Source of the DNA: Xenopus tropicalis
Taxonomy: Eukaryota; Chordata; Amphibia; Anura; Pipidae
Direction: 5' to 3'
Length of the DNA: 64,000 nucleotides
Assembly: GCF_000004195.4 (NCBI RefSeq)
Contig: NC_030683.2
Span: 66,762,764 to 66,826,763 of the forward strand
Program-made: the position numbers and the translations under genes
Shown here: positions 2,481 through 49,924 of the stretch, piece after piece
Numbering within the stretch: position 1 is the first letter of the stretch
Layout: each line of letters starts with the position of its first letter
The notes under the pieces: model-generated
Told to the model about the DNA's origin: nothing
Database searches by the model: none
What the model saw: only the letters and a program-made list of their open reading frames with translations

Positions 2481-2624
2481 CTTCCAAGCACAGTCCAGAG
2501 GGAGAAGTCCGTCCAGTTCCAAAACAGTAATATCCTGGTGGACATGGTTTGCACTGTGACTCATTACTGAGACCATAATCACTAGAAAAGGTACCTGATG
2601 GGCAGAGTTCTGGGCGATATGAGC
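2481..2624 (-). CDS. Exon 32, last visible exon of the cysteine-rich gene
   Basis: Phase 1 at both ends, 48 codons. Motifs: ELCPSGTFSS, NESQCKPCPPGYYC (sequon NES), SPSGLCLEG. The donor GAAG|gtaaat and open phase show the gene continues beyond base 1 of the window; no further exon is recognisable in 1-2480. Confidence 0.92.
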
Positions 2625-5600
2625 CTGTGACTGAGAGCAGAAAGCAGTAAGTGTGTATGTGTGTGGCTTCTAAGCAAATTGACATTTTTATAATAGTTGG
2701 CAAACAGAGGAATTATGTACTGTATGAATGTAATTTTACTTACTGCAAAATGTCCCTGGAGGACAGATATCACCATAGGTTGCATTTAAGGGTTTTGTAC
2801 TTTTAGCTCCTCTGGTACAGAAAAATCCAGCACTACATTTACCAGATGGGGCAGAAAGTCCTATATTGCATGAACAGAATAATTATACAAAAGATCACTG
2901 TAAATATACTAAATTGTATGCAAACAAAAGTTGATAATAACATTTTTTAATTTATTTAACATTAAAAAAACAAAAGGAAACAATCAAATATATACTGGCT
3001 ATATCTAAAATTGGCAAGGGTTTCTTATGCATCAGCATGCAATTTAGGGAAAATCTTTAGAGAGAGAGAGTTACATTTCCTACTACAAATAATAATTGCA
3101 ATCATAATTAAAAGAAAACAACTAATTATAAATAACATCTTGGGTCAAGATACTAACTACCAGAATAAACATGCTTTCTATTCCAAAAGGTTAAAACACA
3201 ACTGAAGAGGGTTCTGGGAAAACTGATACTGATATATCTATATATTGATATTTTTTACAAAATATGTTCAAAAAGTTTAACAAACAAATACTTCCTCACC
3301 TGCACTCTCACAATAAAACCCAGGAGGGCAAGTGAGAGGCTCTGAGGTTCCTGTGGGGCAGTAAAATCCGGGTTGACATTTCCCACCTGTGGCAGTAGCT
3401 GGACAGAGACAGTTAGCACTGGTATAATTATCCAGATCAAAGGGTTGAGGAGTCCAAGCAGCATAAACGCAGAACCACCCTAAGAAGACAAGACAGTGTT
3501 CTTTTTGTTTTTGGAAAGAACATTTACTAATAGACACTAGTGGCCAAATTAGAAAGTCTACTAACCCTCAGCACTAAGCAGGCATTATGTAGTTACTGCA
3601 TATATATGTATATCCTAAGAAAATGAAGGGAATTACTTTAGCTCTACTGTTAATATTATTCTTTGGGGGAAGGAGGGTAACAATATTTATTGTGTTATCT
3701 CTATGAATAAAAAGGTACAATAACTTCAATCTTTTTAAAATTTGTAAAATTCTAAAATCATTTATAATTTGTGCAATCTGATATTCTGATATCTAAATCA
3801 TTATTTTTATATACCCTTTACATACAATAAGTATCACTGGAAATTGAAGTATTTCGTATACATTAGCCATAATATGTGTTAAGCTAGTTTCATATATTCT
3901 TAAAGGCAAGATCTTCTAACTGTTTAATTTAATTGACTTACCAGGATCACATTTGCCAGACACCATGCTCAGACCTTCAGTGCCACAATAGTGTCCTGGC
4001 AGACAGGAGAGACAACTATCCAAGCTTTGTGTATTTGGATCAGGGTTATAGAAGCCACGAGGGCAGGGAAATTGAGTTGCATGTTTTGTTCCTGAAATAA
4101 ATAAACAATTGTATTTTGAAAGATATTGTAAAGGCTTCATATACAATATTGCATCATTGATTGTTGTTGGTTGAGAATGCCCTTAATGGTGCTGATAACA
4201 AGTATTACTTGTAGCCCGCTAAGCACGGGAAGCTCAAGGGGCAGTCAACTGTAACTGGAAATTTACCACTAACAACAACTGCATTTTGTTCTCACAATTT
4301 CACATATGAGAAATGTTGCTTAGCATTTCTCCCAATTTTCTTGGGTATAAATTACTTGTTGCTTGAATTTTCTTGAGTTTGAAAATCCCCAAAATGAGTA
4401 GAAAAAAAATGTTCTACAAAAGAAATGCATGAATAAAATGGGAATATTGATACATGTTTTGGTACATCTGCCCTTTAGTGACACACAAATACTCTAGGCT
4501 GGGGGCATTTTTTTCTTTTTTAAATAAAAAAAAAAAAAAGGCACCTGAGGGCCGTCCTAGGCACTAACCCTCTGGTGCCTAAATATATATATATGCTCCT
4601 GATTATGGTATGATTGTAAGGCCCGAAGGCCAAATGTTTGGATCAGCTTGAACAGGGAATGATCCATGAGCATATCAGGTAACCTCACCAAACTTGGGAT
4701 CTTTCAATGTAAGGCCAGCTTAACCCTTGCTCTTTTGGAATTACAGAATGTTATAATTATTTGTTTTGTTTGGTCACAATTGCTTGATGATCATTTATCA
4801 TGTATGATTATTAATCAAGGATGGAAAAATTAAACTGTGAGAAAAGAGAGTTTATTGAATGTTTGCAGCAGTTACATATACTGCCAAAATTAAGTGTGCT
4901 GTGGTGCATGGAAACCATAAGTAGCCACTAAAACAAGGTCTCCATACCACAATGAGCCTATGGTCTATGACAAATAAAGAGCAGCACCATCCACATTGTG
5001 ACTATGTACATAGCCCAGTAAGTTTCCAGTGCAGTTAATAACACGGCCTATTCCTAATTCCTATTGTTCCAACTTTATTGTTTTTTATAGCCTATAGTTT
5101 TTTTCTGATATACAAAATAGGGTGATGTCTTTTATAGATTATAGTTTTTTCTGATGTAGAAAATAAGGTGATGACACCTGCATCCCAGATTATCTATCAA
5201 ACAATTACAATGACAAAATACAGTGTAAGGAATTATCTCAAACCACTTCTGGTTAGAGCCAATGAAAGCATAGGTAAGAATCATCCATTTTTGGGTGATG
5301 CTTTTACCTTCAAGGCATATTAAATGATTCTTTACAAGTTTAATCTGAAGCCATGATTAGCACTGAGCAATTTTTTTCGCCAGACATGGATTTACAACGA
5401 ACTTCCACATTTCACCATCGGTGAATTGTTTTGCAAAACTTCAGCGAAAATCCATCACGAAAAAATTTGTTGCACGTAAAAGAAATTGCAGTCGCGGCAA
5501 AAAAATTGCGCAACAAATGTAAATTTTTGCCTGATTCGCTTATCACTAGCCATGATAAATACACAGTTTGGTTTCTCTAAAAACAGAACAAAGTAAATTA

Positions 5601-8600
5601 ATATCTGAGGTCCTGTACTTGTGTTTGAAACTTTCAAAAAGCCTTATATTTAATAGTAAAATATGCTATAAATGGTTATTGCTGTAATAGTTATTACAGC
5701 ATTTAATTTACTTTTCATGGATATGAAGCAAATATAAATATATTTGCCAATAAAAATTGTTCATAACGACATTAGAATGCAAGAAAAGTAACTATTAATT
5801 GTAGAACTAGGCCAACAGCTGTTTTTAGCTGTTATTTTAATACAGCATGACATAAACAATGTTCTTGCTTTTTTTAATACCATAAACATATAGTTTCTTT
5901 TGGTTCTGGCATCATTGTATTTTAATATGCTTACTAAACATTATCAAATCTTTTCAGTATTTTTATTATATTTTCCATAGCATTTAATGGCTATTTCTAT
6001 TTTTGTGCAAAATACATGTACAGATAAATTCAGAATATTCCTTTTTCAAGTGTATTTGTATGGGTTAGAATGTTGTAGTTTAAGGGGCTGATTTACCAAA
6101 AATGTAATTGACAAATCTTAAATATTACCAGTTATTTTTATGAAAATATATCTAGTACCTTCAGGGCAGTAAAATCCTGAAGGACACTGGAAGACACTGT
6201 AGTCACTTGTATTCCCAGGACAATAGTATCCAGGAGGACATAGAAAGCAATCATCCTGTCGTTGAAGATTGTTATATGTTCCTGCAGGGCAGGATAATGG
6301 TTGGGTACTACCCTGGGGGCAGTAATGCCCAACTGGACACTCTCCTCCATCTCCAGTAAAATCTGTGGAAGATAAAATATAGAGGAGAGAAAGTTAGAAT
6401 AAATATGGAATACAGGGTGAAAAATAAATCCTAAAGTGTTAAATATAAATGTTTAAACATAGATTAACTTGACACAACTCTTAATTCAATAATATAAATA
6501 ATTTCCAGGAGTGATTATGTATCTTGAATTAAATCACCATAGTTGTGATTTGTGCACTTTTTGAAAGAGTAAGAGAACAGCATCTAAAGTGTGCTCTAAC
6601 ATAAATAAGTTGAGTAGGGTGACATCCTTATACTATCAGTCATTAGTGTAGCAAAAAAAAACAAACTTGCAGCTGTACCATAGGATATACTGTAATAGCA
6701 TAGTGGCTATTGCGTATTTTTACAAACTCTTTACAACTTGAAAAATATGAAACAAATATATAATTTTTTAAATGTTATTGCCTTACTTTCTCCAGTGGGT
6801 GCAGGGGAGGAAACTCCAATAGTGCAGTAGAAACCTTTAAAGCAAAGACCCGCAGAAGAAGAAAGAGCCATAGAATCACAATAATAACCTGGGGGGCAGG
6901 GCTTGCACTCTGACTTTAAACTGAGAGATAACCTGCAAAAAGGAAGGAAACAAAGTATAAGACAAACGTTTTCTTAGCCAGAAAAGAGCTACAATGCACT
7001 TTGGAATACTAGGTTTTACCTGTCTGAGAATGTACCAACTGGACATGGAAATGGGACACCAGTGCCTGATGGGCAAAAGTAACCAACAGGGCAAGGACCA
7101 CCAAAATTCTCATTCCCATCACCAATAGGGTTAGGTATGATGGACCCTAAAATAATTAAAAAAAAAATACTTGTTGAATTGAATATCTATAAACTGAATA
7201 TCTTATAAAATTGTTAATCAGCACATAACACTATTACCTGATTTACAGAAATAGCCAGCTTGACATGGACCACTTGGTGCTGAACTGCCCCATTCTTTAC
7301 AAAACATACCTGATATATGAAGAAATAAAAAATGTTTAGTCCCTGATATTTTATTTGTCTTAGTAAATTCAAACAATTATTAATTGTATCTTGTAGGAGA
7401 TTACAGCAACATGTGAAAGTTCACAGCTGAATTTTTTTTGTCTAGAAAATCTGGCATTGCCTTATTTCGCTTACCAATACAGGTAGACTATTTGGTTTAG
7501 TACTTTGACATGTATTGCTGTCTTTTTAAGCCTAGAAAAACTGAGAGGGCTTAGTTCAGTTTTTAACTATATTTCTGATTTTCTCACTCACTTTCATCTG
7601 GTATGGTACCTATGGACTGGAGGAAAGCTGTATTAATTCCTATATTTTAAAAGGGATTAGGATCTCAGCCTGGCATTTATAGGCTAATAAGTTTGACATC
7701 CTAGTGGGCAAGTTGTCTGTAGGCTTGTTAAGGGATCAAATTCAACATTATGTTGGTCTTAGTAAAGTCATTTGCTCATGGATAGGAAACTGGCTACAGG
7801 ATCAGGTACAAAGGGTGGTTATTAATGGTACATTCTCTACTTTGAGTAAGATTCTTAGTGGTGTCCTTCATATTGATGAGTGAGTCTGTGCCGTTTCGCC
7901 TTGGCACGATGCAGGTAAAAAAAAATAATCACGTGTGCATTTTTTTTATGCGCAAGAATTTTTTTTTTGCCGGGCATCATTTTTTTGACGTGCATGACCA
8001 TTTTTTTTGTACTCAAATTTTTCCGCGGAGAATATTTGCGCCCATTTTGCAAAAAACAATCTGCCAATGGCGAAACCTGTATATTTGATGCGAATCCATG
8101 CTTGTCAAAAAATTCACTAGTACTCATCACTAGTATCTCAGGGTTCTGTATTGGGTCCACTTTAATTTGACTTAGTTCATTAATGACTTAGGAGAGGGTA
8201 TTGTACGTATTGTATCAGTGTTTACAGATGAAAACACTACGCAGCCCAATAAATTCCATACAAGATGTGATGTCCTTGCAGCATATTGACTAATTGGCAA
8301 TCTGGGTGGCTAAGTGGCAGATGAGATTCAGTGTTGATAAATGTAAGGTCATGCACCTGGGATGTAAAAATATGCAAGCCCCTTATACCCTTAATTGGTA
8401 AGGGCTTTTAACAGCAAGAGCTGTGAGGTTGTGGAATTCTGTCCGTGAATCACTCATGCTAGCAGATACATTAGATAGCTTCAAGAAGGGGTTGAATGGG
8501 AAGTGACAGAATACAGGGTTAAGGAAGATAACTCATAGTAAAAGTTTATCCAGGAACTTGGAGTCAGGAAGGATTTTTCCCCTCTGCAGCAAATTACAGA

Positions 8601-29600: not shown

Positions 29601-30408
29601 TCCCAGTGCTTTTCAAAGATTGTAGTAATATTATAGTATTCATTGCCTATTATTTTAACCCCGCCAACACTCCCAATAAGTTCAATCCGAGCCAATTCAT
29701 CTTCAAGCACCTACCCCCAGTCTTTTTGAGATTATATCAAATTTCTCTCTTGAAGTCAATTGAAATTTTTTTTAGAATCTTAATATTACCCATTACCTAG
29801 AAAAAATGACAAAATCAGAAGAAAGAGAAGGTCTAGGAAGGTGCCACCAGCAGTAAAAGAAAACCTTGAGGGGAAAACCTAGGAGAGACACTTGGCAGGC
29901 CCAGGACTAGAGAGCAGCTCTGGCAGCCAGTAAGAAATTAACAGAACGGGGGGGAACCATTAGTGACACTCAGCGGATGTTGGACGTCAGATCAGTGGTG
30001 GAGTGATGGTGTGGTGGCATTTCTCTTTAACATTATAAACAGATTGTTTTGATGCAGGAACGCACCATTTTTTAGGATATATTACTCAAGAGCCATTAAT
30101 ATCCTGCAAAGTATATCTTTATAAATGGTGCTTAGTTCTTAAAGGTGACATACACATAGCACCAGGGTAAATGTCTGCTTTTTGCAGCAAGTAGTGCTGT
30201 TTTCATGTAAGTGGCTCAGCAAAAGCTGGATAAAAGAGTTCTGGGAGTGAATGGCTATCTTAGGTATCCTTTAATGATCTTGAAGAGAAGGTCGGCATTG
30301 GTGATACTCCTGTGTAATTTCTATGTCATTTCATGTTATGTCAGTGGCTTTCCATCTGTCATGTCTTACTGTTGCCTTAGGCAAGCCCTGTAGAACTGAG
30401 AGCTCTTC

Positions 30409-30450
<42 letters not shown>

Positions 30451-33400: not shown

Positions 33401-33735
33401 TAGTGCTTGAAACGTTGGATCTCTTTGCTTAAATAAACTTACTATATTTTTGCCAAGTCCTGGTGAGTGAAGCTCTTTTTTCTTGCTATATATATATATA
33501 TATATAACATGAAATAATCTGTGGCCGGCACACCCGTAAAATTCTAAAAAATCTTTTTATTGATAAAGGTCCTAATGAGGACCGAAACGTTGGTTCTGAA
33601 CAATGAGTCTTCAATAAAAAGATTTTTTTGAATTTTACGTGTGTGCCGGCCACAGATTATTTCATGTTAAATACTCGAATTTTGGCTGTGCACCCCATAG
33701 AATACTAAAGCCTTGGGGTGCAGACACCATCAGGA

Positions 33736-33771
<36 letters not shown>

Positions 33772-42700: not shown

Positions 42701-45700
42701 TTTTTTTGTCTTATATCACAACTTCTAAATCAGCAGTCAGCTCATGTGCTCACCAGTATATGCTACCTGCAGTTTGGTTTCTATCACCTTACTAGACCTA
42801 GCTTTTTATTATTTATACTATTAGACTGCAATGGACATAAGACAGAGACATCTAACAGTTTTTGTGGACAGCTCTGCATATAATCTAGCACTATAAATAA
42901 GAGATGGTTATTACTATTATTATTTTCTGTAATGAAACAGTACTTTGTATTGGATGGAACTAAGATACCATAAGCCCATACTGGTCTCAAGCAAATACCA
43001 TTTGCCCTGTTTATATAGATAATTTTTTATTATTGATTTTTTTTAAACCTGACAAGCTTTTTATTTTTTGAAAAATTGTGATTGTGAACCCATGCAAATA
43101 AATGTAAGTGAGATAAAGAACTCACTTTTTAAAATAGTTTTACCCCGACCCAACCCTCAAAGTATAATATATTTGCCTCTTAGTGACTGATAATTGGTGA
43201 GTAAAAGGACAGAAGTTACTGTGTAATACAAAAAAGTTTAATATTTATTAAACATTGGTAAAACATGGAACTTGATAATTTATTTAAAATTTACATTTAC
43301 ATTTGATACTTGTTGCCTTGTAATTTATACATTTAGACTGTAATTCATTTAATAATCTGGGTTGTGCTACAGTTAATTCATTGCTTGAGGAGTGGCAAGC
43401 AGTAACTCACACTGAGTATACCAGTATCATCAAGTGTTTTTCTAACTCCATACTACCCAACTTCTGCAACAAATGTTACTAGCCAAAATATCCTCACACA
43501 ACACAGAAACTCGTAATATACCTATCACTGTAATCCGTATAAATACCAATTTTATGAGTTAAGATCCAGATGCAAAACAGTTCTATAAAATTATGTTTAC
43601 TTTTCAAAAAGCTTAAATTTTGTTGGGGTGGAGTTGCCCTTTAATGTGGATTTGAGGTATTTTCAGGAACTCAAAACAGGACACCTTCTCTTTGGTATTT
43701 ATATATACCTCTGTTATTGGCCCATAGGTAGACCACACCCTACCACACTTTGATATAGTGTTTGGGAAGGGATGGTTCTTCCGTCTTGGCCTGCAGGATT
43801 TGATCTGTGTGGATGCTCCAGGAAGCCTGGGATCCACACCTGCCCAGAAGTGATTGGCCCTAAGCGAATTTATACCCTAAGGGATATATTTATCATGCTG
43901 TGTAAAAAGTGGAGTAAAGCATTACCCAGAGCAACCAAATAGATTTTAACAGTTAGAAAATAAAATCAAAGCATCTGATTGGCTGTTATATACAACATCA
44001 CCGGTGATGTTTTACTCCACTTTTTACACAGCATGATAAATATACCCCTTCGTGAAGTCGGGGATCCTGGGAAAAAAGACTGGCAATAATAGGATATCTT
44101 CTGTTATAGCATGTTTAGGAATGTGTGGCAGAATTATTTAGTAAGAGCAGTTTCTGGTTCCAACTAGGAGGTAAGAGAATTAGTTTATTTTACAAGCTCT
44201 GCATCCTTGTTGTAGGGACCACAGTTAAAACACAGGTGTCAGGCTAGTTCCTTTTCCCCTAAACCACCATCGGCTGTTTGGGATCCGGTTCAATAAGGTG
44301 GACAACATAAGGACTAAATACTATTTTCCCTGTACTCTCCACAGTGGTGCAGTACTGTTTTAATTCATCATCCATTGAGACTGCCTTGCTTCTACACCTC
44401 ATGTGCTGTGAGTATATTGTCTGAACCCTGCAACATCATCTTTTGTCTGAACAAATAAATCAGTTGTTTTGCAAGAGCTTCTGGCATCCATCTACGTCTT
44501 TAATTTACAATATGTGCTTACACGTTGCAGTGGGAGGTGTAGTTATACAACACCCTCAGTGTAGTAACTTCCACATTGCGAAGGCCCATCCTGGGAAAAG
44601 GGGAGTGCCTTGTACCCCATGCTCTACCTATAGCTGGACATTTTAAGCCAAATAGAGGTTACAGCTATATAGTACCACATATAAACTAAAATTTTACCTT
44701 TTATTTATCTAGTAGAGGCATTTTAGCAGCAATGTGCAGTATTATTCTAGGTTTGAGTTAACATACCTGGTGGACAAAGCTGGCATCCCTGAGGTTCAAC
44801 CCTGTAAAAACCTGGTTCGCAGGAAATCACTTCACCATCTGTTCGCTGCACCTCTGTCATTCCCAAGCTAGACGTGCCATTATTGCAAATACATGAATTG
44901 CTCTTTACTGGTTGATCATTCAAAACAATATCAGGGTAAAACCAGTTATATGTGTGTGGGCAATAACTTCCTACAAAAAGAGAGACTAATTAATCACATT
45001 GTTTTTTTCCAGATTTATGTTAAGAACACATGGTTTTATATATATAGGTAACCAGAGTCCTGTGCCTAGGGTGGATGGCAGCTTTAAGGATACAGTACAT
45101 CTGATAGGTGCCTAATGGTCTTGCTAACTAGCCTTACTACTTACTACTACTACTTACTATTTACTACTTACTAGCTTTTGAAGGACTAACCTGATGGCCA
45201 GCTATACCTACTAGGACCTCCTGCATCCACAGTGCAGAATAAATCTCCCAGGCACTGCTAGGCAAGGCCAACCTTACTAAACTGTAACTATATAACAATA
45301 TTCACCTTATTAAAATCTTTTTATTTTATATTTTGAATCAGATTCAATTCCATGGGAAAAAACATGTTTCCTGACATACAGTATTCTCTATTGGGATGTG
45401 TGCAATTGAATTTAGTGATTAGGTTATTCTTTTACCAAATTGAACCCAACATTTTATCTCAAATGTTATTTCCTTAGGTTCCAATTTGGTGTCACATAGT
45501 TTATAAGTAGTGATGAGTGAATTTTTTTTTTCACCAGGCATGGATTCTCAGCGAATTTCGCGTGTCAAAAAAGTCAAAAATAGGTGCAGATGTTTCGCTC
45601 ATGAATATAAGACTTTAGTCCCTGTATTTCTTATGGTGTGTTCTGCATTAACCATTTTCCTTATGGATAATTACTCCCAATTAATGGGCAAAAGGCAACT

Positions 45701-48700
45701 TTAAATCTACATTTTACATAGAACTCTTTTGGTAAGCATAATGTTTTTTCTAAGGAAAAGCAATGTTCAAGAATGTAACTGTGTAATCAATTTAATTTTA
45801 ATGATAGGCATCAGCCCCTTCTCAACACTTATATTTTGCTTGTTACACAATTCATTGGAGTCATGGCTATTGCACGTTAGAAGCAGAAGTGGTTATATTA
45901 TCCTTTGCAAGATGCCTAGGGTGGCACAGAGATCTCACAGGGGGGGTTTGAATACCATGCATCACTCACAGGTAATATGCAGAGGGAAACAAACTTACTA
46001 GCACTCATATCCATGTCATGGTTTAATTATGGCATAGAACACCGGCAAATTCAATATTATATATTTTTTTTATAGGGTTCTGAAATTCGAAGAAGCTCTG
46101 TCAGTATCACAAATTACTGCTCTATAAAGGCCCTTTGCTTATTTTTATCAGTAGGATCGCTTTGCATATAGTTGTGAATAGAGTGTACTGCATACTGTAT
46201 TACAACATTTATTTTGAAAATTACTGTGCCAAAATTTAATCCTTTAAAGGAAAAATTTTCTTTGGTTTTGTTGCCAGAGAATTTATAATTTTATTGTAGA
46301 ATTGTTATTTTTCTTTACTCCCATAACTTTTTAGAGCTATATCTAGATAGTTTATATTAAAAGCAAACACTGTAAGATACAATTTATTGCACCAATTGAT
46401 AGTGTCTAGCATTAAGTAAAGCTAAATAGTTTAGCAAATATGATTTGTTCCTTAACTTATATCGTCCTTTTGTAGATATAAAACAACATACATTAGCTTT
46501 TTCTGCAGAGCTTTACCTAGTCCACCTGAATCTCATTAGAACCCTATTAGGAAAATACAGACATAATACAATACAATACAATACAAGGCAGAAGTGAAAA
46601 TAACAGGCACATAAAGAAATGGGTGCTGTATTTAAATGGATGTATGGTTTAATACAAGTTTCAGCTTTCACAGTGTTTTTAGATTGCATCATTTTTCTAC
46701 CAGCCTACCAGGGGTGCACACAGACAACAATGTTATACTTCAGTCTAATCAGTCTTACTAAAGGAGAGAAAGGGCTATGGATTCCAAACTGCTTAAATGT
46801 TGATAGATGTGTGCCTGCATCTGCTCTAAGTGTGATCCCTGGCAGTCATTTTAATGAGAACATCTCTGCACATCAGATCATTTTCCTTTTCCTGACAGTT
46901 TGTGTTTTTCCTCCTCTGAAGTAACGCTTCACTATTTAATGAGAGGGTCTAATTACCAACTTCATTTGCTTGTTGCCAGGGCCTGTAAATACTTGATTTT
47001 CTCATTATATGTCACCTACTTAGTGTGGATAAAGAAGGTTTAATTCTATTGCTGTGTATTATTTCTATGAAGTAAATCAATTTGTTAAATATTTAGGGTT
47101 TGATTTATTAAAATAATGTAATTTATTTACCAAGCGGACATGATGGCTACTGTTAATTATAAAAATTCTAAGGAACAGATATATCAAAATGTGAGATTAG
47201 ATCTTGAAACTAAAAAACTCACCCACGTTCTATTCACTCCTATGGGATTTTAAGAAGCGCATTTATCAGTTGGTGAACTGATAAATATGCTTCTAAATAA
47301 TGATGTCAGTTCACTAAACACTTTCCTGACATTCATTTAAACACACATACATATTATACAAACTATATAATAAGTAATAACTGAGGGTCACCTTCTAGAC
47401 ATGGTTGACATTTGGGTAAATCCACTGTAGAAAAAAACCCTGGAGGGCATTTGACACACTGAGAATGATCCTGAGTGGGCTCTTGTCCTGGTGGACATAA
47501 CTAAATGAGAGATTGTAGAATCATAAGTAGAGGTAATAGGTAAGTCACAGACCCAGGAAAGCAGAGTATATATTATTTTATTATGACACTAATAAGAGGT
47601 ATAAGCAGTATAACAAATGCTAGGGGGCCCATTTACTTACTCACGAACCGGCCGAATGCGTCCGATTGCGTTTTTTTCGTAATGATCGGTATTTGGCGAT
47701 TTTTTTCGGAAAATTATTGAGACTTTTTCGTTGCCATCCGAATGTTGCGCAAAATCTGGCGATTTTTTTCGTAGCGTTAAAACTTGCACAAAAAGTCGCG
47801 CCTTTTTCGTAGCCATTCCGAAAGTTGCACAAAATGTTGCGATTTTTTCGTAACGTTCGGATTCATTCAAGCTTCAGTATGGTGACTTTTCTTGGGCCAG
47901 GTTGGAGCTGCAGGGTGCCATTGAGTCCTATGGGAGGCTTCCAAAATCATGCTAAGTCTGAAAGTTTCGGCCGCCGCTTACGAGCGCTCAATACGAAAAA
48001 GTCGCGACAAGATACGAGCGAATCGTAATGGCTACGAAAAACTTGCGTTTTTTCGCGAAAATCGTATTGGTAACGAAAAAGTCGCGACAATTTCCGAAAA
48101 AAGTCGTAAAGGCGCCGAAAAAATCGCAAAAAAAACGAAAGTCGCAAAATGTTCGTTTTCCAATCGGAATTTTTCCAATTCAGATTCGAATTCGTGTCTT
48201 AGTAAATCAGCCCCTAGGAGTTACTTACATTGATACATTTGACAAAGAAACATGCTGGTAAAGTGCAACTATTTAAGATAAACTAAAATATACTAAATTC
48301 AATCCTTATACACGAGTAAAATAATTGACTGTGTGCAAGTTTTAATTCACTTTTCACAAAGGAGGCTATGGCAACCTCCAGTGAAGTTTCAAATACTGCT
48401 TAGAAGACGTTTAAAGAAACATATAGAAAAAAATCTTTTTACCTTCCAGTCATGTCCATCTGGGCATACAAATCCATAGGGGCAATCAGAACAGTCCAAT
48501 TCCCCTTCCAGAGAATACTGACCAGGTTTGCAACGAATTAAATAGCCAGAATTAGGGTCACAAGAATACCCTGAAGGGCAAGGTCTACAGGATGATCCAG
48601 ATTCTATACTTATAAAGCCAGGAGAACATGTCTGTTGAATAAACAAATGCATATGCTTTACATGCATGCATCACACCTACTGTATTAGAAAAGCATTTTT

Positions 48701-49924
48701 TTCTGTCTTTACCTGGCAGTCACTGATGTTGCTTTTAGCTGGAAAGGGATTTACTGTACCAGTTGGACATTTTTGTGGAGCTGCAGATCCGCCTGGACAA
48801 CTAGAATAACACATTAGAGGGTTAAGATATTAACATGCATTGATTTACATCATTGTTGACTACATCATTCATTATAAACCTGGAATGCTGATACTTTCTT
48901 CCACAAACCTACAGAGACACTGGTTAGGGACGAACAGGCAGGGATTGAAATTCCTCCTTTGAAGGTGATGGTGTGAGGGGGGCAGGGGGCCCAGGACAAT
49001 TAGATGGTCCCAGTTGAATGACCTCTTAAGGAGATCTATACACTGGAGGAATGGAAAGAGGCACAGCTGGCAAACCCCCCTCTTTAACAGGCAGTGAGGA
49101 CCAGCTGGGTACTGGTATGCCCTGGGGTTCATTATGCAGTATGCAGTGGTGGTCCTACTAAGGATCAAATGGCCCAGACAACAGCACGGTTGATGTTGAC
49201 TTATGTTCCAAATTGTTGCCACTATAAGAACCTGAACCATACATGGTAGTTGCAACATTGCATTGGAATGTCCCAGTCTGTTTGATGGAATCAGAGCAAA
49301 ATTATGCTGTAAGCACATACATTAGGAGCAATGGAAATTGTGTGTATTTCAGACTGTGCCTGACTGTGCAGCACCAATCGCCTGACTGCACTGTGACTGT
49401 GCCTGACCATACAGTATCTTAATAAAAAATTTGGCCAGCGACTAAGCCTGTGTTTTAGATTTCGGCCCCCTTATGTGATTGAGTTTGACACCCCTGCTTT
49501 AAGGGGTGGAATATGAATAAATTATGCTACTGAGTTTCACTATATTACTTTATAAGTGAAACCTTTTTACTTGAAAACACATTAGAAAAAAACCTTAATT
49601 AGATTCCACAAAGCAATCAACAATTTAAACACAACAGTATTATATAAATTGTTAAAATCAAGAAAACATGCAGCATAATATTAAATTATTTTCCAGGAAC
49701 AATAAAAAGACATTGAAAACTAAAGGTCACCTAATTATATAGTGGTTGGATACATTACATGTAGGGCTTTCTCCTAATACAAGTTTTAGAAACTTTTCAC
49801 ACTTACAAAAATCCAGTGTGACACTCCCAGCAGCTGCCAGTTGCATAGAAAGTGCCCGATGGGCAATGAATAAGACAGTCAGTCTCACAGTTCAGCTGAC
49901 ACATAGAGGACAAGCAGAAAACAC
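2481..49924 (-). CDS. Giant cysteine-rich repeat protein, 32 internal exons (partial at both ends)
   Basis: Thirty-two exons can be joined from high to low coordinates on the minus strand: 49807-49924, 48713-48800, 48443-48631, 47392-47500, 44767-44970, 34654-34758, 34341-34532, 27115-27225, 23884-24076, 23622-23758, 22188-22412, 19793-19934, 19588-19711, 17377-17565, 17129-17266, 15704-15889, 15298-15492, 14326-14462, 13811-13979, 13170-13304, 11283-11435, 10863-11052, 10644-10784, 9525-9707, 7238-7309, 7020-7146, 6787-6932, 6159-6362, 3942-4091, 3300-3479, 2744-2860, 2481-2624. They sum to 4,893 nt (1,631 codons), all GT-AG, frame kept throughout with no stop. Nearly every exon carries CPxGxYC, CPxGTY/F, CxxCPxG or SGxCxxGYYC motifs, as in ephrin-receptor-like/GCC2-GCC3 cysteine-rich modules (family knowledge). 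At least ten NxS/T sequons suggest an extracellular, glycosylated product (inference). No transmembrane, kinase, EGF or CUB segment is visible. Initiator, signal peptide and C-terminus lie outside what I can identify. SCUBE and SVEP1 contain similar but far fewer modules, so no symbol is assigned. Confidence 0.9.
2744..2860 (-). CDS. Exon 31 of the cysteine-rich gene
   Basis: Phase 1 at both ends, 39 codons. Reads SAPSGKCSAGFFCTRG, LNATYGD (sequon NAT), ICPPGTFC. Joined to exon 32 it gives CPPGTFCSSY. No ORF in the correct frame was long enough to be flagged. Confidence 0.9.
3300..3479 (-). CDS. Exon 30 of the cysteine-rich gene, with unusual insert
   Basis: Phase 1 at both ends, 60 codons. 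Begins WFCVYAAWTPQPFDL, an aromatic insert, then NYTSANCLCPAT (sequon NYT), and returns to GGKCQPGFYCPTGT, TCPPGFYCESAG. The layout (aromatic insert followed by CxC) parallels exon 5. Confidence 0.92.
3942..4091 (-). CDS. Exon 29 of the cysteine-rich gene
   Basis: Phase 1 at both ends, 50 codons. Motifs: FPCPRGFYN, SCLSCLPGHYCGTEG, VSGKCDPG. Acceptor tttcag, donor CTG|gtaagt. Confidence 0.93.
4092..5357. other. Intron between exons 28 and 29, left part
   Basis: A+T-rich intron sequence without recognisable coding. An A-rich run and an (at)n tract lie near 4530-4600. No RNA gene seen. Confidence 0.4.
5358..5548. mobile_element. hAT-type MITE (TAGTGATGAG family) copy 2
   Basis: Ends TAGCACTGAGCAAT and gcttatcacta, flanked by the exact 8-bp duplication gccatgat (5350-5357 and 5549-5556). 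Contains the family's 'cgccagacatggatt' subterminal block. Confidence 0.87.
6159..6362 (-). CDS. Exon 28 of the cysteine-rich gene
   Basis: Phase 1 at both ends, 68 codons. Motifs: ECPVGHYCPQGS, LSCPAGTYN, DCFLCPPGYYCPGNTS, FQCPSGFYCPEG. The visible 70-residue ORF here is in the wrong frame; the motif-rich frame has no nearby ATG. Confidence 0.92.
6787..6932 (-). CDS. Exon 27 of the cysteine-rich gene
   Basis: Phase 2 in, phase 1 out. Reads LSLSKSECKPCPPGYYC, SSAGLCFKGFYCTIG, ending APTGE. Together exons 26 and 27 (273 nt) make one in-frame 91-codon block. Confidence 0.9.
7020..7146 (-). CDS. Exon 26 of the cysteine-rich gene
   Basis: Phase 1 in, phase 2 out. Reads PCPVGYFCPSGT, FPCPVGTFSD and splits an arginine codon with exon 27. 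The intron to exon 27 is only 87 bases. Confidence 0.9.
7238..7309 (-). CDS. Exon 25 of the cysteine-rich gene (micro-exon)
   Basis: Only 72 nt, phase 1 at both ends. Reads MFCKEWGSSAPSGPC then QAGYFCKS. This is exactly one SGxCxxGYFC unit. Acceptor tcag, donor CAG|gtaata. Confidence 0.9.
7585..8727 (+). mobile_element. CR1-like LINE fragment, reverse transcriptase remnant
   Basis: Decayed plus-strand reading shows DWRKAVLIPIF, then NWLQDQVQRVVINGTFS, KILSGV, QGSVLGP and WQMRFSVDKCKVMHLG, all familiar CR1/L2-group reverse-transcriptase landmarks, broken by stops and frameshifts. The 3' part (about 8390-8727) matches the LINE tail at 24213-24718 and ends in 'ttactatgttactatg'. A hAT MITE (7871-8132) interrupts it. 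Dead copy in an intron of the cysteine-rich gene. Confidence 0.82.
7871..8132. mobile_element. hAT-type MITE copy 3, nested in the LINE
   Basis: Ends TATTGATGAGTGAG and actcatcacta. Flanks gtccttca and gtatctca are both near variants of the 8 bases expected in the LINE's SGVPQG codons, so they are a decayed 8-bp target duplication. ORFs of 76-101 codons here are fortuitous. Confidence 0.8.
8728..9524. other. Intron between exons 24 and 25, right part
   Basis: No repeat family or coding segment recognised; A+T-rich single-copy-looking sequence. Confidence 0.35.
9525..9707 (-). CDS. Exon 24 of the cysteine-rich gene
   Basis: Phase 1 at both ends, 61 codons. Motifs: CSICPTGYTCPNG, VCPPGHFCPDG, FPCPPGTFN, GCQTCPPG. 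The donor is CCAG|gttaca, off-consensus. It is chosen because it gives CPPGMFC with exon 25 in phase, and the reading frame otherwise runs into intron-like sequence. Confidence 0.87.
9918..10548. mobile_element. Probable T2-type MITE (TTAAAGGG end)
   Basis: Begins ttaaagggtaactccactg. The 3' part (about 10464-10548, 'gtgatatcactccaactt') is shared with the element at 62378-62840. TTAA/TTAAAGG ends are typical of Xenopus T2-family MITEs (family knowledge). The right terminus is not clear. Confidence 0.5.
10644..10784 (-). CDS. Exon 23 of the cysteine-rich gene
   Basis: Phase 1 at both ends, 47 codons. Motifs: FYCILG, ICPEKYFCPEGS, SLCADGTYSNRTG (sequon NRT). Glycine of CPxG is replaced by K (CPEK). 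Only 78 bases separate it from exon 22. Confidence 0.92.
10863..11052 (-). CDS. Exon 22 of the cysteine-rich gene
   Basis: Phase 0 in, phase 1 out. Motifs: ICPPGYFCSNG, QPCPPGTWN, WCLLCPPGKFC, DLCHSG. The exon begins GTGAG after cctaaac-side acceptor sequence, so the AG|GT border could be mistaken for a donor on the other strand. Confidence 0.92.
11084..11237. mobile_element. Short MITE with GGGGCTGATT ends
   Basis: Left taggggctgattactcaatt, right gataaattagccccat, imperfect inverted ends, about 154 bp, in the intron between exons 21 and 22. A lone end of similar type (ggggctgatttaccaa) occurs at about 6084. Confidence 0.6.
11283..11435 (-). CDS. Exon 21 of the cysteine-rich gene
   Basis: Phase 0 at both ends, 51 codons. 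Reads GTFSNVSG (sequon NVS), SCELCPLGMYC, PEGHCHQGYYCTRGS. No long ORF marks it in the correct frame. Donor CCT|gtaagt. Confidence 0.9.
12088..12403. mobile_element. hAT (Charlie-like) MITE with CAGGGATCCCCAACC ends
   Basis: Terminal inverted repeats CAGGGATCCCCAACC and ggttggggatcactg. Flanked by 8-bp near-duplication acatagag/acataaag. About 316 bp, no transposase. Confidence 0.87.
13170..13304 (-). CDS. Exon 20 of the cysteine-rich gene
   Basis: Phase 0 at both ends, 45 codons. Reads LPGQSGCRECPAGHFC, LPCPQGHFCPAGS, NPCLA, joining to GTFSN in exon 21. Donor GCG|gtaagc. Confidence 0.92.
13361..13735. mobile_element. T2-family MITE (TTAA ends)
   Basis: Left ttaaaggaaaatggaaggt, right actttccttctcctttaa. 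It carries the 'ggcagctgctatcttaaac' interior common in Xenopus repeats. It lies in the 506-bp intron between exons 19 and 20 and makes up most of it. Confidence 0.75.
13811..13979 (-). CDS. Exon 19 of the cysteine-rich gene
   Basis: Phase 2 in, phase 0 out. Reads MYCDG, TPSGPCKPGYYCPLGS, a cysteine-free linker (TTSIHHEVMEGFFSTEG), then SCQPGTFQP. Donor CCT|gttagt. The linker replaces the usual CPxGxxC unit. Confidence 0.9.
14326..14462 (-). CDS. Exon 18 of the cysteine-rich gene
   Basis: Phase 0 in, phase 2 out. Reads GLCPAGSFCPAGS, SLCPPGTYSS, QCLPCPPG, joining to MYCDG in exon 19. No long ORF flags this exon; frame and both splice borders were read directly. Confidence 0.9.
15298..15492 (-). 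CDS. Exon 17 of the cysteine-rich gene
   Basis: Phase 0 at both ends, 65 codons. Motifs: GFYCVHG, VPCPEGTYSN, ECRPCEAGQFCAG, TSGFCQKGYFCPGNTS. It ends with a sequon (NTS). Donor TCG|gtaagc. Confidence 0.92.
15556..15660. repeat. Xenopus 'gtatggggtcc-attatccagaaaccc' repeat fragment
   Basis: Matches the very common frog interspersed repeat recognised by 'attatccagaaaccc' and 'gaaaggccatctccc'. A fuller copy is at 25846-26055. It occupies half of the 211-bp intron between exons 16 and 17. Confidence 0.7.
15704..15889 (-). CDS. Exon 16 of the cysteine-rich gene
   Basis: Phase 0 at both ends, 62 codons. Motifs: LCPEGYYCPQGT, YPCQPGSFWNVS (sequon NVS), CWPCPAGYFC, KLCPP, continuing into GFYC of exon 17. 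The 70-residue ORF seen over it is in a wrong frame. Confidence 0.9.
15890..17128. other. Intron between exons 15 and 16
   Basis: Contains a short (gt/ga)n tract at about 16027-16066. No coding or named repeat recognised in the rest. Confidence 0.4.
17129..17266 (-). CDS. Exon 15 of the cysteine-rich gene
   Basis: Phase 0 at both ends, 46 codons. Reads NPCPNGTYGDKPGLG, ECQLCPEGSYCYQEG. A sequon (NGT) falls inside the CPxGTY motif. Only 110 bases separate it from exon 14. Confidence 0.92.
17377..17565 (-). CDS. Exon 14 of the cysteine-rich gene
   Basis: Phase 0 at both ends, 63 codons. Motifs: TCLLCPAGHYCNEE, LVCPAGSHCPKG, SVCPQGYYCPPGN. Three successive CPxGxxC units without the intervening CPxGTY unit. 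Confidence 0.92.
17756..18160. mobile_element. T2-type repeat, copy 1 (plus orientation)
   Basis: Starts ttaaaggagaactaaacac. From about 17870 to 18150 it is the reverse complement of 58345-58625 ('cctgctgccagtcctgaatc', 'ggaaatccaagcaggctgtc'), so the two are members of one dispersed family. Right terminus unresolved. Confidence 0.65.
18638..18920. mobile_element. MITE with TAAAGCTAGCCATA/TGGCCACCTTA ends
   Basis: Left taaagctagccataaacg and right cgtgtgtggccacctta are imperfect inverted repeats. Two internal palindromes are present, 'tcatacgaaacctcgtttcgtacga' region (18668-18694) and a 'aggaggtagaaatcc...tttctacctcctt' stem (18800-18832). Confidence 0.65.
19045..19261. mobile_element. hAT-type MITE (TAGTGATGAG family) copy 4
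   Basis: Ends TATTGATGAGCGAAA and tttgatcacta, exact 8-bp duplication cagtgcat at 19037-19044 and 19262-19269. Lies in the intron between exons 13 and 14. Confidence 0.88.
19588..19711 (-). CDS. Exon 13 of the cysteine-rich gene
   Basis: Phase 2 in, phase 0 out. Reads GTYRAEQG, ECDLCPAGSYC, PVPCGTGNFS. No long ORF marks it, but borders (ttttag acceptor, TCA|gtgagt donor) and frame fit both neighbours. Only 81 bases separate it from exon 12. Confidence 0.87.
19793..19934 (-). CDS. Exon 12 of the cysteine-rich gene
   Basis: Phase 1 in, phase 2 out. Reads QFPCPAGTFNLKLGS, ECSACPVGSYCPIGSSKP and AMCP, joining to IGTYR in exon 13 where most modules have PGTY. Donor CAT|gtgagt. Confidence 0.9.
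20165..20412. mobile_element. hAT-type MITE (TAGTGATGAG family) copy 5
   Basis: Ends TAGTGATGATCAAA and gctcatcatta, exact 8-bp duplication aatattaa at 20157-20164 and 20413-20420. Carries the 'ccaggcatggat' and 'gcgaagcgaaacagg' blocks shared with the other copies. Confidence 0.88.
21088..21584. mobile_element. T2-family MITE (TTAA ends)
   Basis: Left ttaaaggaaaactaaaccc, right gggtttaaattctcctttaa, about 497 bp. A 91-codon minus-strand ORF inside it is incidental. Confidence 0.78.
21585..22187. repeat. Intron sequence with X. laevis/tropicalis 'cagacctgacctgga' repeat
   Basis: From about 21765 to 22110 there is a repeat rich in 'acccgcaacc' and 'gacctgcaacctgac' wording known from many frog introns. 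Exact limits are not seen. Confidence 0.4.
22188..22412 (-). CDS. Exon 11 of the cysteine-rich gene
   Basis: Phase 1 at both ends, 75 codons, the longest exon. Motifs: PVPCPQGHYCPAGT, YKCPPGTWSD, ECYPCPSGWFCFAG, APSGKCSAGYYCPEG. It contains a full three-part unit (CPxGHYC, CPPGTW, CxxCPxG plus SGxC). Confidence 0.93.
23018..23225. repeat. GC-rich interspersed repeat (GCCGGATTTGTGATCCGGGC)
   Basis: A strikingly GC-rich island in A+T-rich intron. It starts 'gccagcgccggattt' and includes 'cctaggcccgggcctttgtg'. Overlapping ORFs on both strands are side effects of base composition. Probably a hAT-derived repeat; family unnamed here. Confidence 0.5.
23363..23607. mobile_element. hAT-type MITE (TAGTGATGAG family) copy 6, decayed
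   Basis: Left end gaggagcgaatctgtcccg and the interior 'cgtttcgcttcacggcaaa' match the family. The right end is degraded and no target duplication is clear. It ends only about 15 bases from the donor of exon 10. Confidence 0.65.
23622..23758 (-). CDS. Exon 10 of the cysteine-rich gene
   Basis: Phase 2 in, phase 1 out. Reads YVCPVGSRSP, NACPAGTFSD, QCDICPARFFCVTG. The glycine of the CPxG motif is replaced (CPAR). Only 125 bases separate it from exon 9. Confidence 0.9.
23884..24076 (-). CDS. Exon 9 of the cysteine-rich gene
   Basis: Phase 1 in, phase 2 out. Motifs: QCVLCPVGFYC, PVPCPPGTYN, DCMLCMAGRACTHAG, ECFPG. The donor is GG|gtgggt. A second possible donor nine bases further does not restore frame, whereas this one yields CFPGYVCPVG across the junction. 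Confidence 0.88.
24213..24718 (+). mobile_element. CR1-like LINE 3' fragment
   Basis: An open plus-strand reading gives RRLRGDMITMYKYIRG, then QRTRGHPLHL, GRFHLNIRKGFFTVRAVKLW and NSLPESVV, matching the conserved C-terminal region of CR1-group ORF2 proteins. It is followed by a 3' UTR ending 'caacccaacttactatgtaa'. The 5' part is missing, as is usual for LINE copies. It lies in the intron between exons 8 and 9. Confidence 0.88.
24719..27114. other. Intron between exons 8 and 9, remainder
   Basis: A+T-rich sequence with no exon. Only the repeat at 25846-26055 is recognised. Several 60-90-codon ORFs lack domain features. Confidence 0.4.
25846..26055. repeat. Xenopus 'attatccggaaac' interspersed repeat
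   Basis: Reads gtatggaattcattatccgg, then 'gggaaggctttctcc', 'agtaccttgtacttgatcc' and 'ggaggcaaaataattttac', in the order typical for this abundant frog repeat. Confidence 0.72.
27115..27225 (-). CDS. Exon 8 of the cysteine-rich gene
   Basis: Phase 1 at both ends, 37 codons. Reads SSVSGFPCTRGKFCPSG then DCPPGTFTNYIGAS. It is isolated between a 7.1-kb and a 3.0-kb intron. Donor TCAA|gtaagt. The exon was short enough to have no ORF of its own in the correct frame. Confidence 0.88.
27800..27889. repeat. Perfect-stem inverted repeat
   Basis: Arm ggaggccacatggatggggg is complementary to ccccatccatgtggcctcc, each extending into 'aaagca'/'tgctttt', about 27-bp stem with a 35-base loop. Could be a MITE core or a foldback; function unknown. 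Confidence 0.8.
28560..28690. repeat. hAT-type end 'cagtgtcggactggg'
   Basis: The segment starting at about 28575 matches the frequent frog repeat end 'cagtgtcggactgggcc'. The other end is not found, so limits are approximate. Confidence 0.4.
30410..30444. repeat. (GT)n microsatellite
   Basis: A run of about 15 gt dinucleotides directly before the Penelope-like reading frame. It supplies the start of a spurious long ORF. Confidence 0.95.
30916..32318. mobile_element. Non-autonomous hAT element inserted in the Penelope copy
   Basis: Ends CAGTGCTGTCCAACT and agttggacagccctg, with an exact 8-bp duplication ctgtacat at 30908-30915 and 32319-32326. 1,403 bp with no transposase; about half is a 34-bp minisatellite. 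The target duplication falls inside Penelope endonuclease coding sequence, so it inserted after that element. Confidence 0.9.
31314..31985. repeat. 34-bp minisatellite arranged as an inverted array
   Basis: Right arm (about 31465-31965) has around 15 copies of a 34-bp unit (tgtgtgccatactatgcttg + ccctcccctgccta). The left arm (about 31314-31430) has three to four units of the same period in reverse complement. Because 34 is one more than a multiple of 3 and the unit lacks stops, all three plus frames stay open (173-233 codons); these are not genes. Confidence 0.92.
33303..33469. repeat. Near-perfect 83-bp-arm palindrome
   Basis: Arm cactcaccaggacttggcaa... reads outward to 'gtcctggtgagtg', mirrored about position 33386. 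The right arm includes gaagagcacagttagtgctt followed by gaaacgttgg, a stem-loop plus GAAAC as in a degenerate hammerhead. Confidence 0.9.
33506..33668. repeat. Second palindrome with hammerhead-like core
   Basis: Arms aacatgaaataatctgtggc and gccacagattatttcatgtt extend to about 60 bp each. The loop holds 33568-33593: ggtcctaatgagg then accgaaacgttgg. That resembles CUGAUGAG...CGAAAC but has A in place of the catalytic-core G. Confidence 0.8.
34341..34532 (-). CDS. Exon 7 of the cysteine-rich gene
   Basis: Phase 1 at both ends, 64 codons. Motifs: YYCLEG, LCPKGFYCPIGT, YPCPAGTYN, CRVCSEGLFCQEG. A longer reading in another frame over the same DNA is a shadow. Confidence 0.92.
34654..34758 (-). 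CDS. Exon 6 of the cysteine-rich gene
   Basis: Phase 1 at both ends, 35 codons. Reads HFCLDG...IPCPAGSYSEKEGLYQ then CTLCPAG, a textbook module. The next exon supplies YYC to complete CPAGYYC. Donor CAG|gtatgc. Confidence 0.92.
35191..35945. mobile_element. DNA transposon-like element with ACTCGAGTATA ends
   Basis: Left tactgtatatactcgagtat and right atactcgagtatatacggta form inverted ends. 'cggcttatactcgagtca' recurs internally at about 35255 and 35848. Middle is GC-rich (35280-35540) and A+T-rich after. No transposase frame. About 755 bp in the intron between exons 5 and 6. Confidence 0.72.
36570..37450 (+). mobile_element. Ngaro-like (DIRS-order) retroelement remnant
   Basis: Broken plus-strand reading shows GGFRDGFHLGG, NLKSLND, LAKEMMEKEVQLGCMEGLF and, after frame changes, ITGHSYVYLLKGDPG, VILCEGGHYLGKYPIK and LFIVWYNIIPR. 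These parallel the reverse-transcriptase start and the GHSxV / GGND-type hydrolase segment found in Ngaro elements (family knowledge). Many stops. A decayed fragment, not a gene. Confidence 0.6.
37451..38631. other. Intron between exons 5 and 6, unassigned part
   Basis: No repeat or coding recognised except possible continuation of retroelement 3' sequence to about 37700. Confidence 0.35.
38632..38695 (-). mobile_element. Very short CR1-like LINE 3' tail
   Basis: The complement reads 'gatggacatatgtctttttt' and 'caacccaacttactatgtta', identical in kind to the ends of the LINE copies at 8640-8727 and 24660-24718. A 5'-truncated copy of only about 60 bp. Confidence 0.8.
38744..39515 (+). mobile_element. 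L1-like LINE ORF2 C-terminal remnant
   Basis: Plus frames give MFILPKVLYVLWHSPVFIPK, then a W-rich stretch, and downstream LILISYRHSLLQLYVIHRAY, TVQRLHAMKI and ARRILTLHWKKQTSPKAQEW, resembling the post-RT region of L1/Tx1 ORF2. A frameshift near 39010 and a G-run of about 18 bases at 38900-38918 break it. Confidence 0.72.
40061..40162. repeat. Inverted repeat with 29-bp arms
   Basis: Arm tgactgaagtgtacaggtct + ttctagctt matches the complement of aagctagaaagacctgtaca + cttcagtca, with a 44-base loop. Perfect as read. Confidence 0.88.
40760..42640 (+). mobile_element. DIRS-like retroelement remnant
   Basis: Fragments on the plus strand: a capsid-like stretch with DDALAFYHLMDRKIGAAL and ATLAVCRPVIALMPVSR; RT-like DRKDAYFHI and FPFQAF; and a tyrosine-recombinase-like end LKAYSTRATSLSWAI...VCKAAAWRSFSTF. 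The order (gag, RT, recombinase) and the HSTR-like motif fit DIRS elements. A short palindromic repeat (about 41430-41565) is inserted in it, and large parts are missing. Confidence 0.65.
41430..41570. repeat. Frog 'gggagattagtcgcc' hairpin repeat
   Basis: Contains gcggggagattagtcgccca and gtgactaatctccccgc as inverted arms, a hairpin repeat frequent in Xenopus. A related, weaker copy is near 61538-61610. Confidence 0.7.
43878..44050. mobile_element. MITE with about 40-bp near-perfect inverted ends
   Basis: Left aagggatatatttatcatgc-tgtgtaaaaagtggagtaaa, right the complement of aaggggtatatttatcatgc-tgtgtaaaaagtggagtaaa. Central 'attggctgttatatacaaca' resembles 53920-54072. About 173 bp. Confidence 0.88.
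44767..44970 (-). CDS. Exon 5 of the cysteine-rich gene, with unusual insert
   Basis: Phase 1 at both ends, 68 codons. Starts SYCPHTYNWFYPDIV, an aromatic, cysteine-poor insert, then CICNNGTS (sequon NGT), a polar stretch, and returns to the usual pattern with SCEPGFY...GCQLCPPG. The insert resembles that in exon 30 in layout. The upstream intron is short (2.4 kb) and the downstream one is 10 kb. Confidence 0.88.
45508..45603. mobile_element. hAT-type MITE (TAGTGATGAG family) copy 7, short
   Basis: Left tagtgatgagtgaatttttt with the family 'caccaggcatggatt' block; right gatgtttcgctcatga. Flanks tttataag/aatataag are a possible decayed duplication. Only about 96 bp, internally deleted. Confidence 0.7.
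45604..47391. other. Intron between exons 4 and 5, remainder
   Basis: A (aatac)n microsatellite at about 46565-46586. Otherwise no repeat or exon recognised; the 101-codon plus ORF at 46619-46924 has no domain. Confidence 0.35.
47392..47500 (-). CDS. Exon 4 of the cysteine-rich gene
   Basis: Phase 0 in, phase 1 out. Reads LCPPGQEPTQDHSQCVKCPP then GFFSTVDLPKCQPCLEG. Donor GAAG|gtgacc is weaker than consensus but gives an exact in-frame join to GSYCPH in the next exon. Confidence 0.85.
47621..48217. mobile_element. Long MITE with GGGGC..ATTTACT ends
   Basis: Left tagggggcccatttacttac, right cttagtaaatcagcccctag. Interior is full of 'aaaaagtcgc' and 'tttttcg' runs. Several ORFs of 60-94 codons on both strands are compositional. 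It fills most of the intron between exons 3 and 4. Confidence 0.78.
48443..48631 (-). CDS. Exon 3 of the cysteine-rich gene
   Basis: Phase 0 at both ends, 63 codons. Motifs in order: TCSPGF, CRPCPSGYSC, RCKPGQYS, CSDCPYGFVCPDGHDWK. This is a complete CxxCPxGYxC module plus the start of the next. Donor AAG|gtaaaa. Confidence 0.9.
48713..48800 (-). CDS. Exon 2 of the cysteine-rich gene
   Basis: Phase 2 in, phase 0 out. It reads CPGGSAAPQKCPTGTV...SNISDCQ, the second half of a YCPxG-CPxGT module with one sequon (NIS). The donor is CAG|gtaaag. At 88 nt it is one of the two shortest exons. The join to the neighbours restores GFFCPGGS and DCQTCSPG. Confidence 0.85.
49430..49502. repeat. hAT-type end 'gagtttgacacccctg'
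   Basis: The stretch 'gtttgacacccctgctt' is the common hAT end class. The partner end is not clear; it may lie near 48880. Low-confidence fragment in the intron between exons 1 and 2. Confidence 0.4.
49807..49924 (-). CDS. Exon 1 (of those visible) of the cysteine-rich gene
   Basis: Phase 1 in, phase 2 out; acceptor after a pyrimidine tract ending cttag, donor gtaagt. The translation (about residues 1-40 of the visible protein) has a dense cluster MCQLNCETDCLIHCPSG, then CWECHTGFF, and completes FFC with the next exon. The close CxxxCxxxCxxxC spacing differs from the later modules, so this may be the edge of a different domain. Earlier exons must exist because it starts mid-codon. Confidence 0.85.

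Follow-up and report, generated by a model that had tools for sequence, protein, structure and literature searches.

Exon structure and identity of the gene

The window analysed here is the whole stretch of 64,000 nucleotides at positions 66,762,764 to 66,826,763 (forward strand) of Xenopus tropicalis contig NC_030683.2, assembly GCF_000004195.4. Its minus strand carries 32 coding exons specifying a long array of ephrin-receptor-like cysteine modules. As judged by alignment with predicted proteins of other animals, these exons are shown to form the first (5') third of the orthologue, in X. tropicalis, of a gene named Gm9195 in a Peromyscus entry ("Predicted gene 9195") and si:ch211-286b4.4 in entries from fishes other than zebrafish. 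We hold the identity of the gene and the layout of its protein with high confidence.

A script that chained open segments by splice sites and by cysteine-, glycine- and proline-rich composition yielded 38 candidate exons, from which six (starts 63665, 57518, 45220, 39006, 31498 and 28237) were removed by hand as low-complexity, repeated or devoid of module sequence; one acceptor was shifted manually by 9 nucleotides, from 27216 to 27225. The resulting model (Table 1) runs from 49924 to 2481 with concordant phases and no stop, and its 31 introns, of 78 bp to 10 kb, are all GT-AG. It comprised 1,630 codons and one partial codon until the start of the last exon was corrected from 2624 to 2630, the acceptor 6 nucleotides upstream, to match the annotated X. 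tropicalis protein XENTR_v10018612 (P0007). The preliminary description, made from the letters of the window, had given 32 in-frame exons without a stop and 1,631 codons; we reproduce this structure and correct the count to 1,632. The minus strand contains the motif CP.G.[YF] 42 times vs once for the plus strand, and in 100 dinucleotide shuffles its minus-strand mean was 0.53 and its maximum on either strand three. The module assignment proposed earlier was borne out by Pfam: in a first, shorter window model of 1,359 residues, Ephrin_rec_like (PF07699) was detected in 10 stretches (E 1e-9) and was the only domain above the cut-off. The window protein contains 53 CxxGxxC units.

A search with the window protein, scoring the 7,984 candidates that shared most words with it, retrieved 1,245 proteins at E<=1e-5, the best 120 of which were listed; P0007 came from this search. 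All 32 exons align with the Leptodactylus model P0254 (1,623 of 1,630 residues, 67% identity; lowest exon 25/67), and ahead of residue 1626 of the model none of seven tetrapod orthologues has an insertion as long as nine residues. Global alignments used the window protein joined to the rest of P0007, and identities given here refer to the window part: 65-69% in four frogs, 54-57% in alligator, lizard, chicken and pigeon, 48-58% in Panthera, Peromyscus and ferret (the last 48%, over 1,038 residues), 53% in paddlefish, 50% in pikeperch, 40-41% in a shark and a cyprinid, and 39-43% in starfish, crinoid and amphioxus. A jakobid protein aligned with none of the 1,630 window residues and with 1,447 residues of the remainder at 38%. 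The colinear module array of the Gm9195 / si:ch211-286b4.4 family is thus present in the window protein, and these alignments, together with the match of every exon and the absence of insertions, mark the gene as an orthologue kept across vertebrates, and no novelty of frogs.

Extent and ends

P0007 is letter-identical to the window protein over 84+216+47 = 347 shared residues; it begins at exon 9707-9525 and continues for about 2,380 residues past the window. Exons 7146-7020 and 6932-6787, conserved and in frame, are missing from it; together they span 273 nucleotides, a multiple of three, and their absence reflects either exon skipping or an error of the gene model. Six longer frog models (P0121, P0123, P0125, P0249, P0254 and P0255) reach 4,605-4,993 residues, other frog models being shorter, and so place about one third of the protein in the window and imply some 3,200 codons beyond it.

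Both ends had been described as open. This holds at the 3' end; the 5' end is probably closed by an in-frame ATG at 49949 (MALFLNSLGVFCLSSMCQ...), which opens a signal-peptide-like stretch positioned like the signal peptide of bird orthologues, bearing in mind that a translated splice-site polypyrimidine tract can resemble such a hydrophobic stretch. When a signal-peptide exon was sought upstream, one weak candidate emerged, 61047-60969, and under looser limits four, one of them the ATG at 49949 within the exon. Immediately 5' of the first exon, at about 50032-50005 on the minus strand, the window reads RYNETEQNEEG vs RYNETERNEGG at the N-terminus of the Leptodactylus model; this conserved, possibly transcribed block may be a leader or an extra exon.

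Table 1. Coding exons of the gene in the window, in order of transcription
Feature	Coordinates	Strand	Evidence
First visible exon; probable start codon 49949 and signal peptide	49807..49949	-	model, bird N-termini
Alternative extent of that first exon, if spliced from upstream	49807..49924	-	exon model
Coding exon	48713..48800	-	model, Leptodactylus alignment
Coding exon	48443..48631	-	model, Leptodactylus alignment
Coding exon	47392..47500	-	model, Leptodactylus alignment
Coding exon	44767..44970	-	model, Leptodactylus alignment
Coding exon	34654..34758	-	model, Leptodactylus alignment
Coding exon	34341..34532	-	model, Leptodactylus alignment
Coding exon	27115..27225	-	model (acceptor adjusted), Leptodactylus alignment
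Coding exon	23884..24076	-	model, Leptodactylus alignment
Coding exon	23622..23758	-	model, Leptodactylus alignment
Coding exon	22188..22412	-	model, Leptodactylus alignment
Coding exon	19793..19934	-	model, Leptodactylus alignment
Coding exon	19588..19711	-	model, Leptodactylus alignment
Coding exon	17377..17565	-	model, Leptodactylus alignment
Coding exon	17129..17266	-	model, Leptodactylus alignment
Coding exon	15704..15889	-	model, Leptodactylus alignment
Coding exon	15298..15492	-	model, Leptodactylus alignment
Coding exon	14326..14462	-	model, Leptodactylus alignment
Coding exon, weak donor gttagt	13811..13979	-	model, Leptodactylus alignment
Coding exon	13170..13304	-	model, Leptodactylus alignment
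Coding exon	11283..11435	-	model, Leptodactylus alignment
Coding exon	10863..11052	-	model, Leptodactylus alignment
Coding exon	10644..10784	-	model, Leptodactylus alignment
Coding exon where P0007 (XENTR_v10018612) begins	9525..9707	-	model, P0007
Coding exon	7238..7309	-	model, P0007
Coding exon, skipped in P0007	7020..7146	-	model, Leptodactylus alignment, P0007 comparison
Coding exon, skipped in P0007	6787..6932	-	model, Leptodactylus alignment, P0007 comparison
Coding exon	6159..6362	-	model, P0007
Coding exon	3942..4091	-	model, P0007
Coding exon	3300..3479	-	model, P0007
Coding exon	2744..2860	-	model, P0007
Last coding exon in window, gene runs on beyond	2481..2630	-	acceptor agreed with P0007

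Architecture of the protein beyond the window

Long animal orthologues, of 4,000-5,000 residues, combine about 90-140 CxxGxxC units and a cupredoxin-like domain with a single transmembrane helix, an extended tail and a zincin-like domain. Five tetrapod models (three frogs, alligator, chicken) have 113-139 such units, a cyprinid has 125, starfish 91, ferret 87 and the jakobid Andalucia godoyi 31. C-terminal searches returned 125 proteins with P0007 as query (best 120 listed) and 86 with the Andalucia protein (P0223); matches to the latter from P0273 on, mostly covering less than 40% of the query, were not counted, apart from P0275 and P0086, which matched a profile, and P0281 was left out (68% of the query covered, no profile match). 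Among 292 retrieved proteins, our own profiles recognised the ectodomain in 174, the first tail segment in 124 and the C-terminal cytoplasmic domain in 111. P0007 itself has, outside the window, the cupredoxin-like ectodomain, a single transmembrane helix, the conserved tail and the C-terminal pseudo-zincin domain (residues 2513-2665, 173 bits). Hydropathy, the sole test applied to the helix, showed a peak of transmembrane type next to the ectodomain in 25 of the 26 proteins displayed, the other (P0086) ending before this point; it was the only peak in 21 of the 25, three had an additional N-terminal peak and one had two adjacent peaks. The first tail segment contains the conserved motif LEDFNVRTLYDKLEDQ.

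No type-1 copper site was seen in the cupredoxin-like domain. The glutamate of the catalytic zincin motif HExxH was never present in the 86 C-terminal domains displayed (a crude pattern allowed the motif to be read in 93 of 111), and H-x3-H occurred in 20 of those 86. Profile searches of PDB with the cupredoxin-like and C-terminal domains gave no convincing match. The Andalucia protein follows nearly the same plan: its start resembles a signal peptide, and it has modules, the ectodomain, the helix, a long and charged stretch of coiled-coil character and the C-terminal domain (71 bits); its first tail segment was not detected by the profile. Among named protists the C-terminal domain is also found in Chilomastix, and it occurs in several environmental proteins besides; the profile did not find it in oomycete, apicomplexan, Chromera, Barthelona or Aduncisulcus proteins.

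The initial view of a very long, little-described surface protein consisting mostly of ephrin-receptor-like modules is upheld; that it is made almost wholly of modules, or secreted, is not supported, given the cupredoxin-like ectodomain, transmembrane helix and long cytoplasmic part of the orthologues.

Mammalian copies

We counted 19 mammalian models, P0043 having been dropped as an isoform of P0035. A whole or partial ectodomain was present in 17 and the first tail segment in 16. The pseudo-zincin end is missing in all 19, though transmembrane-proximal parts are mostly kept; either the domain has been lost or the models are systematically truncated. Strict global alignment gave 48-60% identity over the window part in 13 of the 19, the other six falling short of it; coverage is best in ferret, with 1,038 of the 1,630 window residues aligned, and six models align to none. 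BLAST identities of 31-33% had raised the prospect that the mammalian matches are a separate paralogue, which we rejected because those BLAST alignments were out of register. The earlier suggestion was that the gene is possibly lost or reduced in mammals: it is not lost, as the cupredoxin-like domains show, and in these models it is reduced, as seen in the missing zincin-like domain and the incomplete module arrays. Cercocebus is the sole primate noticed among the matches listed, its model ending near the expected start of the ectodomain; neither a human nor an ape name was noticed among them, and no direct search for one was made.

Two mammalian models, P0214 (Ovis) and P0220 (Sagmatias), are fused with a P-type ATPase gene, one being named potassium-transporting ATPase alpha chain 2, and fish models P0162, P0166 and P0179 with one labelled sodium channel beta-3. 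Such fusions hint at neighbouring genes.

Distribution and ancestry

Named animal carriers comprise mammals, birds, reptiles, frogs, a newt, bony fishes, sharks, a sawfish, echinoderms, amphioxus and molluscs. Named protist carriers are oomycetes, metamonads, a jakobid, Chromera and apicomplexans, with a ciliate by BLAST only: Stylonychia P0253, like Eimeria stiedai P0272, was matched by BLAST and missed by the ectodomain profile. Oomycetes, metamonads and alveolates have at least the modules, the cupredoxin-like domain and the helix in common, and the cupredoxin-like part is present in molluscs, echinoderms and amphioxus too. Names of insects, nematodes, Dikarya or land plants were absent from the matches listed (120 of 125, and 86) in a search that needs shared five-letter words and has length limits.

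A tree built from 43 ectodomains (P0253 and 42 of the 174 that matched the profile) recovered vertebrates, animals (with two environmental sequences) and oomycetes with support of at least 100/99 each, and mammals adjoin sauropsids; metamonads are ungrouped, eight of the branches are long, and the deeper forks are weak. A layout common to mammals, starfish and some single-celled flagellates probably originated in an early eukaryote, and vertical descent from it is likely as the simplest reading, short of proof.

Other features of the window

Inside the intron 34340-27226, a plus-strand open reading frame (ORF) of 151 codons at 32235-32687 encodes a GIY-YIG endonuclease domain (Pfam E 7.7e-5) and is probably a remnant of a Penelope-like retroelement; apart from it, nothing exceeded the Pfam cut-off in the 10 of 40 window ORFs scanned, and Rfam returned nothing at its gathering threshold. 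Minisatellites lie at 31452-31969 (34-bp unit, 15 copies), 54594-55074 (23-bp unit, 21 copies) and 57310-57657 (88-bp unit, four copies), the first two producing long Cys- or Tyr-rich false ORFs.

Possible function

The joint explanation that we consider best, and to which we give an even chance, is a giant membrane-anchored extracellular fibre protein on ciliated or flagellated cells. A transmembrane helix and long tail suggest anchoring, and with it a fibre held at the cell surface. The module array would stand off the membrane as a disulphide-rich rod, in frogs some 200-300 nm long if extended, given the dimensions of TNFR-type modules; the cupredoxin-like domain would form a rigid collar above the membrane, and the cytoplasmic tail would dock the fibre inside the cell. 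Less firmly, the fibre may sit on the membrane of a cilium or flagellum and act there in drag, adhesion or mechanosensing, much as a flagellar hair anchored in the membrane would. The sole basis for this site is that the named carriers are ciliated or flagellated at some life stage, and for a ciliary role our confidence ranges from low to evenly divided. More tentative still is the proposal that modules, cupredoxin-like collar, transmembrane helix, coiled coil and pseudo-zincin make up a cilium-surface fibre inherited from the last eukaryotic common ancestor, a membrane-anchored counterpart of algal flagellar hairs that would have persisted into vertebrates and escaped notice under the database names zonadhesin and SCO-spondin.

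The portions of the literature consulted held no evidence of ciliary localisation. In the accessible part of one study, Gm9195 is listed with open-chromatin elements of inner hair cells that show no enrichment in hair cells (PMC12528612). Zoospore flagellar membranes hold many uncharacterised and cysteine-rich proteins, the Gm9195 family not being named in the sections covered (PMC12223298), and choanoflagellate vane filaments, which survived proteinase K, are described in the text available to us as having components still to be characterised (PMC9671500).

It is possible, if somewhat unlikely, that the protein is instead a general apical or pericellular coat or adhesion molecule of epithelia and protist surfaces, concerned with feeding, mucus or pathogen contact and without any tie to cilia. 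The architecture would fit equally, several flagellated groups are absent among the named carriers, and the P-type ATPase fusions of P0214 and P0220 lend this some colour, as adjacency only; against it stands the flagellated or ciliated character of the lineages that do carry the gene. We think it improbable that the protein is a signalling receptor, with modules binding ligand like TNFR superfamily ectodomains and a tail relaying through coiled coil and pseudo-zincin: the PDB match of P0254 to TNFRSF9 (E 1.2e-3) and the conserved tail motif speak for it, but the 113-139 units of tetrapod models (87 in ferret) would far exceed the needs of ligand binding, and Pfam found no known signalling domain in two orthologues. 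A secreted extracellular-matrix protein of modules only, as the window portion by itself would read, is very hard to reconcile with the helix and tail of P0007 and the orthologues. A pseudogene or chance assembly of repeats can practically be dismissed, given 1,632 codons without a stop, uniformly GT-AG introns, the matching of every exon in Leptodactylus and a motif count far above that of shuffled sequence.

A protein of more than 4,000 residues, whose layout extends from a jakobid to frogs and partly to mammals and which is misnamed in databases, is a rare case. If ciliary, it would be a candidate molecule for the as yet uncharacterised fibres on the surface of motile cilia; in any event, a correct name would keep it from being taken for zonadhesin, SCO-spondin, MEGF6 or NOTCH.

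Comparison with known systems

The refuting case named in the preliminary description, a match to a named and well-characterised family of equal length, was looked for and did not appear. Database labels such as zonadhesin, SCO-spondin, MEGF6 and NOTCH3-like would entail VWD, MAM, TSP1 or EGF domains; these labels we rejected, as Pfam placed PF07699 alone above cut-off in the long orthologues P0125 and P0203. Some other matched entries carry precomputed PF07562 or PF26010. SVEP1, SCUBE and ELAPOR1 carry a few ephrin-receptor-like modules; of the CUB, sushi, VWA, pentraxin and EGF domains of SVEP1 or SCUBE, Pfam found none in P0125 and P0203, and a TNFR-like match of ELAPOR1 to the first window model fell below the cut-off. 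Alcohol dehydrogenases, the best PDB matches to the 1,630 residues (E 0.005), were judged spurious.

The Gm9195 / si:ch211-286b4.4 loci are colinear with the frog gene over modules, cupredoxin-like ectodomain, transmembrane helix and first tail segment; the 19 mammalian models of this family differ in that the pseudo-zincin end is missing and the N-terminal modules are incomplete or absent. In the literature as far as it was accessible, this little-known, misnamed family is hardly mentioned: Gm9195 appears in one passing mention, ch211-286b4.4 in none, and no description of the protein was found.

Apicomplexan CRMPs, according to the part of the source available, are likewise large and bear ephrin-receptor-like modules, with EGF-like/Kringle domains and nine transmembrane domains (PMC9815656), vs the one helix beside the ectodomain here. 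Another protein for comparison is Chlamydomonas MST1 (PDB 8tx1), described in the sections covered as a long extracellular flagellar fibre with cysteine-rich ephrin-receptor-like modules (PMC11015965). It was matched by one 360-residue piece (E 1.2e-10) and by neither 822 nor 1,630 residues nor P0254, and no proline run was seen by eye in the C-terminus of P0007. As far as that account extends, MST1 features N-terminal Ig domains and a C-terminal poly(proline) helix, whereas the Gm9195 / si:ch211-286b4.4 family combines a cupredoxin-like domain with a transmembrane helix and a cytoplasmic tail.
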